From positions 1-36,823 of the forward strand of contig JALWJZ010000096.1 in NCBI GenBank assembly GCA_026996855.1: a stretch of DNA of 36,823 nt, written 5' to 3'. This DNA comes from Anaerolineales bacterium. GTDB taxonomy: Bacteria > Chloroflexota > Anaerolineae > Anaerolineales > DRMV01. Both the position numbers and the translations under genes were made by a program. The notes under the pieces were generated by a model. That model saw only the letters and a program-made list of their open reading frames with translations, ran no database searches and was not told the DNA's origin. Of the stretch, positions 6,656-36,661 are shown piece by piece (positions within the stretch are counted from its first letter, which is position 1; each line of letters begins with the position of its first letter).

Positions 6656-7468
6656 ATGACGGAATCAGTCGGTACGGCCCTGAACAAGCAATATCAGCCC
6701 ACCACCACCCGGCAGAGCCACGCCCGTTACGACGAGCCGCCCATCATCGTGGCCAAGGACGTGCACAAGTGGTTCGGCCACTTCCATGCCCTGCGGGGTA
6801 TCAGCATGGAGGTGTACCCGGGCGAGGTGGTGGTCATCTTCGGGCCTTCGGGTTCGGGGAAATCCACCTTCATCCGGTGCATCAACCGCCTGGAGGAGCA
6901 CCAGAAGGGCACCATCATCGTGGACGGGGTGGAGTTGACCCACAATCTGAAGAACATCGAACAGGTGCGCCGCAAAGTGGGCATGGTCTTCCAGCAATTC
7001 AATTTGTTCCCCCATCTTACGGTCCTGGAAAACGTGACCCTCGCGCCCATTCACGTGTTGAAGTGGCCCAAGGAAAAGGCCGAGAAGGTGGCCATGGAGT
7101 TGCTGGAACGCATGGGCATTCCCGACCAGGCGCACAAGTATCCCGGTCAACTCTCCGGTGGGCAGCAGCAACGGGTGGCCATTGCCCGCGCCCTGGCCAT
7201 GCAGCCCAAAATCATGCTCTTCGACGAGCCGACTTCGGCTCTGGACCCGGAGATGATCAAGGAAGTGCTGGACGTGATGGTGGAACTGGCTCGCTCGGGT
7301 ATGACCATGGTCGTGGTCACCCACGAGATGGGCTTCGCCCGCGCAGTGGCTGACCGTATGTTCTTCTTCGACCAGGGCAAGATTGTGGAAAGCGGTACTC
7401 CGGAAGAAATCTTTACCAACCCCAAAGAAGAACGGACCAAGCAGTTCCTGGCGCAGATTTTGCATTGA
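6656..7468 (+). CDS. aapP: Amino-acid ABC transporter ATP-binding protein (AapP/GlnQ type)
   Basis: This 270-residue ATPase powers the importer. After an unusual N-terminal tail of about 30 residues it shows [17 protein letters not shown], Walker [10 protein letters not shown] near residue 64, the Q-loop [12 protein letters not shown], the signature LSGGQQQR and Walker [15 protein letters not shown], followed by the H-loop [10 protein letters not shown]. All catalytic motifs are intact. The ORF-track start at 6593 lies inside aapM; the ATG at 6656 has AGGAGG 8 bases upstream and is preferred. It is the last gene of the operon and is followed by a strong terminator. Confidence 0.95.
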
Positions 7469-9359: not shown

Positions 9360-11279
<1,920 letters not shown>

Positions 11280-11408
11280 GTTTTCACCTCCTAAGACAAT
11301 AGCTTCCGGGTGGGTTCGGGGAACGCTTCGGGTTTCCCCAATTTTCTGGCCTTTAGCATAACAGGCCTTTGCAAGAAGCACGTTAACATTTGCCCATCTT
11401 TTGGAAAC

Positions 11409-11653: not shown

Positions 11654-12364
11654 TCAGATGCCCAGGTAGGCCTCCCGCACGTGGGGGTTTCGGGCCACCT
11701 CTTTGGAGGGGCCTTCCAGTTCTACCCGGCCCTCGGCCAGCACGTAGGCGTAGTCCGCGATGGAGAGGGCCATGTGCACGTTTTGCTCCACCAGCAACAC
11801 GGTGATGCCGGCTTCCCGCAGTTTGCGCAGGCTTTCGTACAGTTCCAGCACCAACACGGGGGCCAGGCCCAGGGACATCTCGTCAATCATGAGCACCTTG
11901 GGCGCGCCCATGAGGCCCCGGGCCACCGCGAGCATCTGGCGTTCGCCGCCGCTCATGGTGCCGGCCTTTTGGTGGAGCCGCTCCTTGAGGCGGGGGAACA
12001 TGTCGAAGACCAGTTCCAGGTTTTCCTGGAATTTCTCCCGGGCGCGCGGGGGCGTGGCGCCCATTTCCAGGTTCTCCAGCACCGTCATGTGGGTGAAGAG
12101 TTGCCGGCCTTCGGGCACCAGAATCAAGCCCATGTTGGCCTTCCGGTGCGGGGGAAGGCGGGTGACGTCCTCGCCCTCGAAGAAAATCTTGCCCTGCCAG
12201 GGTTTGAGCAGCCCCACGATGGTGCGGAGCAGGGTGGTCTTGCCCGCGCCGTTGGCGCCCACCAGCGCGGTCACCTGGCCGGGTTCCAGGCGCAGGCTGA
12301 CATCCCACAGTACCTGCACCTCGCCGTAACCCGTGGAGACGTTTTGCACTTCCAGAATGGCCAT
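11654..12364 (-). CDS. livF: Branched-chain amino-acid ABC transporter ATP-binding protein LivF
   Basis: This 236-residue ATPase is one of the two nucleotide-binding subunits of the liv importer. It shows VSTGYGEVQVLWDVSL, Walker A GANGAGKTT near residue 38, the LivF-specific LVPEGRQLFTHMTVLENL, signature MSGGERQ and Walker B VLMIDEMSLGLAP, with HAL-type VLLVEQNVHMAL after it. The ATG at 12364 starts one base after the livG stop and has GGAGGAG upstream, so translation is probably coupled; the ORF-track start at 12382 is inside livG. It is the last gene of the operon, ending at a strong terminator. Confidence 0.95.
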   Translation of the reverse strand: MAILEVQNVSTGYGEVQVLWDVSLRLEPGQVTALVGANGAGKTTLLRTIVGLLKPWQGKIFFEGEDVTRLPPHRKANMGLILVPEGRQLFTHMTVLENLEMGATPPRAREKFQENLELVFDMFPRLKERLHQKAGTMSGGERQMLAVARGLMGAPKVLMIDEMSLGLAPVLVLELYESLRKLREAGITVLLVEQNVHMALSIADYAYVLAEGRVELEGPSKEVARNPHVREAYLGI

Positions 12365-34480: not shown

Positions 34481-34510
34481 TTGACACCTTTTCCGGCCCT
34501 CGGTTAACAT
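34481..34510 (+). promoter_or_regulatory. Promoter of groESL
   Basis: A consensus -35 TTGACA (34481-34486) is followed after 18 bases by TAACAT (34505-34510), or after 17 by TTAACA. The start site should fall around 34517, about 12 bases before the CIRCE operator. Confidence 0.75.
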
Positions 34511-34528: not shown

Positions 34529-34555
34529 TTAGCACTCGAAGGGCGAGAGTGCTAA
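34529..34555 (+). promoter_or_regulatory. CIRCE operator (HrcA binding site) of groESL
   Basis: TTAGCACTC - 9 bases - GAGTGCTAA is a perfect match to the CIRCE inverted repeat. It sits in the groES leader just downstream of the promoter, so the operon is expected to be repressed by HrcA and released on heat shock. Confidence 0.97.
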
Positions 34556-34578: not shown

Positions 34579-34884
34579 ATGGCCACCGAATTGCGCCCCT
34601 TAGGGAATCGCGTTGTGGTCAAACCCATCGAACAGGAAGAGCGCACGCCCAGCGGCTTGGTGCTTCCCGAGACCGCCAAGGAAAAGCCCCAAGAGGGTGA
34701 AGTGCTGGCCGTAGGCCCCGGCGAGTGGGCCGAGGACGGCAAGACCCGCATCCCCGTGGAAGTGAAGGTGGGTGACCGGGTCATTTTCGCCAAGTATGCC
34801 GGCACCGAGGTGAAAGTGGACGGCGAAAAACTGCTCATCCTGCGGGAGAGCGACATCCTGGCCATCGTGGAGCGCAAGGAATAG
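34579..34884 (+). CDS. groES: Co-chaperonin GroES (Hsp10)
   Basis: This 101-residue protein begins [20 protein letters not shown], has the mobile loop [20 protein letters not shown] that docks on GroEL, and ends with [18 protein letters not shown]. Seven copies cap the GroEL cavity. The ATG has GAAGGAGG 9 bases upstream. It is the first gene of the CIRCE-controlled operon; a 145-base spacer with heptamer repeats separates it from groEL, longer than usual for this pair. Confidence 0.98.
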
Positions 34885-34886
34885 CC

Positions 34887-35015
34887 GTCAGCAAGTCAGG
34901 AGTCAGCAGTCAGGCGTCAGCAGTTAGTCGTCAGCCGACAGCAGAACTGACCACTGTTCACTGACCACTGTTCACTGGCCACTCATCACTGACCACTGAC
35001 CACTCACCACTCCCC
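34887..35015 (+). repeat. Heptamer repeat array with polarity switch between groES and groEL
   Basis: The first half (34887-34943) consists of eight 7-base units of the form GTCAGNN (GTCAGCA, GTCAGGA, GTCAGGC and variants), with one extra base after the first. The second half (34946-35015) is five 14-base units. Two are identical ACTGACCACTGTTC, followed by ACTGGCCACTCATC, ACTGACCACTGACC and ACTCACCACTCCCC. The second half is the reverse-complement type of the first (GTCAG versus CTGAC), so the transcript could fold into an extended hairpin. It ends at the groEL Shine-Dalgarno AAGGAGG. Confidence 0.88.
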
Positions 35016-35029
35016 AAGGAGGTGAAACC

Positions 35030-36661
<1,632 letters not shown>

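Follow-up and report, generated by a model that had tools for sequence, protein, structure and literature searches.

Polarity-flipping heptamer repeats in the groES-groEL spacer

Why should the spacer of a groES-groEL operon be taken up by seven-base repeats that reverse their polarity part of the way along? This question is raised by contig JALWJZ010000096.1, whose full length of 36,823 nucleotides was analysed here (the window). Its host, placed through the relatives of its GroEL, belongs to the Anaerolineales (Chloroflexota) and is represented by an uncultured metagenome-assembled genome (MAG) of 2.56 Mb in 119 contigs. Our results suggest that the groESL array is probably a two-armed representative of the heptameric simple sequences found across this genome, a feature of the DNA level that has no dedicated groEL role and sits in the spacer as incidental DNA. 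It is a known kind of array in a degenerate, two-armed Chloroflexota form. Arrays of this family are dispersed, turn over fast between congeners (in length, presence and letters), survive in frame within genes and keep one fixed order of their arms.

The groES-groEL spacer covers 34885-35029 (145 nt). The groES stop codon TAG (34882-34884) is followed by CC and then by the G-rich, R-type arm (34887-34943, forward strand), which consists of eight GTCAGNN-type heptamers, GTCAGCA-A-GTCAGGA-GTCAGCA-GTCAGGC-GTCAGCA-GTTAGTC-GTCAGCC-GACAGCA; two of the eight carry one mismatch in GTCAG, and there is one extra A. The joining bases GA (34944-34945) mark the flip point, and the surrounding CAGCAGAACT is identical in the array of a same-genus genome. 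The C-type arm, of opposite polarity, occupies 34946-35015 of the forward strand with five 14-base units, equal to ten ACTGNNC heptamers (ACTGACCACTGTTC twice, ACTGGCCACTCATC, ACTGACCACTGACC and ACTCACCACTCCCC, in that order), which decay toward the groEL ribosome site. Directly 3' of this arm stands the groEL Shine-Dalgarno sequence AAGGAGG (35016-35022, forward strand), which members of the family keep whether or not they have the array. Tandem Repeats Finder (TRF) called arrays of period 7/14 at 34883-34944 and 34946-35011, so that the sequence and TRF confirm the initial annotation's description of eight GTCAGNN heptamers followed, up to the ribosome site, by five 14-mers of opposite polarity. 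The period-7 signal of the spacer is far beyond chance: lag-7 identity was 0.62, compared with 0.26 +/- 0.04 (maximum 0.41) in 2000 dinucleotide shuffles, and it reached at most 0.37 in every 145-nt stretch of the window off the array. The operon layout suggests that the array is transcribed.

Many relatives of the array in the genome, the order and the phylum

Using the groESL array as a query returned 34 matches at E<=1e-3 in its own genome, and the degenerate pattern (RCYRNYN)x5 matched 516 times; the reversed pattern is an unclean control for this search because arrays of other phase match it. The initial annotation had proposed a kinship to heptanucleotide tandem repeats and had named uniqueness in the genome together with absence from relatives as the result that would speak against a general role. 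The array is not unique, and its many relatives in this and related genomes support the kinship. The pattern was detected in 29 of 41 genomes in the order and in 79 of 251 in the phylum sample, a patchy spread.

In the stretches around array matches, arrays of period 7 and period 8 (GCGAATNN) fill co-directional spacers, in many cases reaching from the stop codon almost to the Shine-Dalgarno sequence. Single-arm arrays are common. Period-8 arrays (GCGAATNN / GCGGATNN; L087:1632-1729, L096:3412-3500, L103:6240-6343 and L109:4236-4322) often form the left arm in the same genome, joined to a right arm of heptamers, and the two arms, one of period 8 and the other of period 7, are to that extent independent. 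Composites of octamers, then CGAACGACC, then CACTGACC recur at several loci in both orientations. Densities from stretches chosen around arrays are not genome averages: an unbiased 276-kb sample had arrays in 6 of its 122 co-directional spacers and in 1 of its 21 convergent ones, a density below that of the chosen stretches, and the arrays are clustered in the genome. The genes that adjoin or hold arrays include those for S3, L16, L14, L5, S14, L6, L15, L17, TruA and L13, as well as ferrochelatase, URO-D, HemC-HemD, MurJ and MutS. The initial annotation placed the array in a heat-shock operon, but no link between the arrays and heat shock emerged: others lie in mutS and in operons of ribosomal-protein or haem genes. 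A minority of arrays are intragenic, lying in frame within mutS, hemH, hemE and hemC-hemD, and the peptides that they encode (PTADRRPPTAD, SVVSGQW) should not be taken for conserved protein features.

All clear flips run from an R arm to a C arm

Units were typed as R (NRNYRGY, G-rich) or as C, its complement (RCYRNYN). An R-then-C order reads alike on both strands and is independent of gene direction. Flips were counted only between unambiguous arms within 60 nt of each other, and genes were called with a simple purpose-written open reading frame caller. The first set of loci gave 37 R-to-C flips and no C-to-R flip, and two other families, which use different units, gave seven and none. All 44 clear flips thus run from R to C, five of them inside called genes. 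Loci from other Chloroflexota classes offered no countable flips. A looser count had returned several C-to-R flips; the ones looked at more closely proved to be self-complementary units, GGCCGTTGGCC for example, which fit either type.

With respect to genes, R arms lay nearer the stop codon in co-directional spacers (59 vs 7 in the first set and 11 vs 0 in the other families, that is, 70 of 77), and C arms leaned to the start codon (52 vs 38 and 9 vs 2, or 61 of 101). In Xanthomonas, GGGAATC arrays are reported to form 70 and 75 convergent pairs in two genomes, with the same gene-relative strand preference and no function assigned to them (PMC4692102). This pairing, taken from the published counts, is the R-then-C rule with another unit in another phylum. 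Holding inside genes, across Chloroflexota families and in the Xanthomonas data, the invariant polarity is a sharp constraint on models of how such arrays arise. It is this rule that deserves an explanation; the groESL feature itself is ordinary.

Arrays turn over between close relatives

The initial annotation had raised the question of array length among strains. Within the genus, the groESL array of genome G002 has about half the length (spacers of 75 and 148 by the same count) and shares the junction and the flip. In a different genus of the family, three genomes have plain groESL spacers, 56-67 nt long and free of any array. The groESL array would probably have been gained in the ancestor of the genus, its length changing later.

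Other loci have moved further. The L5-S14 spacer holds an array (141 nt) in one species and is plain, at 22-33 nt, in three congeners; the L17-TruA spacer holds an array in five species with different unit letters. The flanking genes align well in both cases. A two-armed array in the domain III region of mutS (L099:13468-13569 in G000:C17, within L099:12314-14992) is inserted in frame at one site in three congeners, with letters and lengths that differ by species, and is missing from relatives outside the genus. A change of one unit there would shift the reading frame of a mismatch-repair gene, which makes this array worth a look. In hemE, arrays between near-identical flanks differ in length by 42 nt (6x7 = 2x21, in frame), and the hemH insertion is missing in G002.

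Two observations concern the same regions. A stretch of haem genes (L081:1-3989, G000:C16) shares about 92% identity with congeners G001 and G003 and, over part of its length, 97% with G002, while most of the ribosomal operon is only 73-85% identical; this excess possibly reflects recent exchange between species. Several ribosomal-operon spacers of G000 are far longer than those of its congeners and have no heptamer arrays (in L105, for example, 2112-2233, 6908-7021, 11159-11295 and 11938-12118), so that spacer growth extends beyond the arrays.

Alternative explanations

The initial annotation had suggested that the arms pair in the transcript as an intercistronic hairpin that sets how well groEL is translated or how stable each gene's part of the mRNA is. 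The arms are indeed roughly complementary, the array takes up the spacer as far as the ribosome site, and, when the flanks are included, the sense RNA of the spacer has a folding energy of -50.1 kcal/mol (z -2.58). The array alone, however, folds no better than shuffles in the sense strand (z -0.84), and it is the antisense strand that folds well (-56.8 vs -37.5 kcal/mol, z -2.89); the congener array behaves likewise (sense z -0.22, antisense z -2.03). Over 21 two-armed spacers, the sense strand folded less well than the antisense strand by a mean of +6.5 kcal/mol (Wilcoxon P 0.065), and in 15 arm pairs an arm's own partner gave no better pairing than foreign arms did (P 0.63). Arrays at other loci are one-armed or have arms of different period, and a left arm of octamers joined to a right arm of heptamers, as at some loci, allows no regular stem. 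A comparison with Rfam at E values up to 1 returned no family for the array region, and the literature on groESL intercistronic processing yielded nothing bearing on the groES-groEL spacer. Nothing here points to selection for an mRNA hairpin, and we regard this explanation as improbable, which counsels caution against reading two-armed heptamer arrays as regulatory hairpins.

The heptamers could instead be recognised by a regulator that binds RNA or DNA and joins many operons in a post-transcriptional network. C arms are often near start codons, and such a hypothesis has a precedent for the TAACTGA repeats of Beggiatoaceae (PMC4679880). The sites nevertheless turn over between congeners even in ribosomal operons, their unit letters differ by species at one site, arrays also lie within mutS, hemH and hemC-hemD, and a normal Shine-Dalgarno sequence follows the groESL array; a regulator therefore seems very doubtful. 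A mobile composite element, in which a transposase-like or gene-conversion process copies entire R-C arrays to new sites and their order descends from a founder, would account for the fixed arm order and for composites that recur at several loci in both orientations. It fits less well with the many single-arm arrays and with the same order in other families that use different units and in Xanthomonas; inspection by eye showed no constant ends or target duplications, no transposase search having been made. We consider this origin unlikely. An assembly or binning artefact might be suspected in a MAG of 119 contigs with some arrays near contig ends, but it is scarcely credible: several genomes have in-frame arrays with an intact half of the gene on either side, and the same junction in an independent congener refutes it for the groESL locus.

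A probable DNA-level origin for the arrays

The account that we prefer is that the arrays arise and are reshaped at the DNA level. Units would be gained and lost in seven-base steps and would drift, the turnover probably coming from replication slippage and from exchange between arrays. Arrays would survive where they do little harm, as in the gap that separates a stop codon from the Shine-Dalgarno sequence after it or, when in frame, in a tolerant protein loop. For the polarity, our best guess, held tentatively, is that the G-rich strand grows 3'-ward from each flank into a gap or break: outgrowths from both flanks would meet as R-arm|C-arm, and growth on one side only would leave a single arm. 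It is a rather improbable extension of this guess that several bacterial phyla possess an activity that adds G-rich heptamers to broken or gapped chromosomal DNA at its 3' ends, each unit being copied from the last. If so, this would be telomere-like repeat synthesis, every joined site would carry two convergent arrays, and R|C scars would mark gene boundaries. Fold-back copying of one arm into the other was rejected: the arms differ in letters and sometimes in period, and own arms are not preferred.

Several points weigh against this account. Neither an RVT_1 reverse transcriptase nor Ku was found in the genus, so that reverse-transcriptase templating and Ku-dependent end joining were rejected and the outgrowth idea lacks an agent; PolX is present but nearly universal, so it does not supply one. 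MutS is present in G000 and most relatives, so a simple loss of mismatch repair fails to account for the slippage. The lean of the arms toward stop and start codons could also result from a role in translation, the flips are not fully independent cases if arrays are copied between loci, and the groESL array is kept in both congeners with a readable groESL spacer.

The groESL neighbourhood

Upstream of the array, on the forward strand, a sigma-70-like candidate promoter of groESL, found by pattern scan only (34481-34510), precedes an exactly matching CIRCE (controlling inverted repeat of chaperone expression) operator, TTAGCACTC-N9-GAGTGCTAA (34529-34555; none in 100 shuffles), and groES (34579-34884; Pfam Cpn10, E 4.6e-34). 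On the same strand, groEL (35030-36661) begins with the ATG at 35030 and has full-length GroEL relatives in the order. The groESL layout varies within the family: in other genera (G006, G010, G007 and G014; L057-L060), no groES precedes groEL, which has its own CIRCE-like element upstream. At the contig end (36640-36823), the 3' end of groEL and a G+C-rich, terminator-like stretch recur about 120 bases downstream, CCGCCTGAGTT...GGTCCCCGCCCTTCCCGGCGGGG being present twice, which suggests a partial tandem duplication.

Comparison with known heptamer repeats

Heptamers are reported to be over-represented among the simple repeats of many bacterial genomes, and we know of no settled function or origin for them. 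The short tandemly repeated repetitive (STRR) sequences of heterocystous cyanobacteria such as Calothrix are tandem heptanucleotides between genes; they belong to another phylum than the host studied here, and the likeness is one of description. The (GATAGRA)n satellites of Chloroflexus aurantiacus (PMC6749651) are heptamer-derived arrays from the same phylum, and the parts of that report available to us describe no polarity or gene-relative order.

The TAACTGA repeats of Beggiatoaceae, Cyanobacteria and Bacteroidetes (MacGregor 2015, PMC4679880) resemble the present arrays in being spacer heptamers near start codons, with indels mostly in 7-nt steps between close strains. They have one fixed unit, however, are almost never inverted and rarely accompany canonical ribosome sites, whereas the arrays described here are inverted and degenerate and are followed by a normal Shine-Dalgarno sequence; the groESL array, with its inverted GTCAGNN / ACTGNNC units, is not of the TAACTGA type.

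Like heptameric long simple-sequence repeats, the present arrays have a period of 7 beyond chance, are dispersed and mainly intergenic, vary in length and letters among close relatives and converge where paired. Rehm et al. (2015, PMC4692102) described heptamer repeats in Xanthomonas (GGGAATC) and in Nostoc (GGGGA(C/T)T), of which those in Xanthomonas share the convergent R-then-C pairs with the present arrays. Theirs are different and more uniform G-run units with quadruplex potential, while ours are degenerate (RCYRNYN), and unlike them the Chloroflexota arrays often have arms that differ in lettering or period and also lie in frame in housekeeping proteins.
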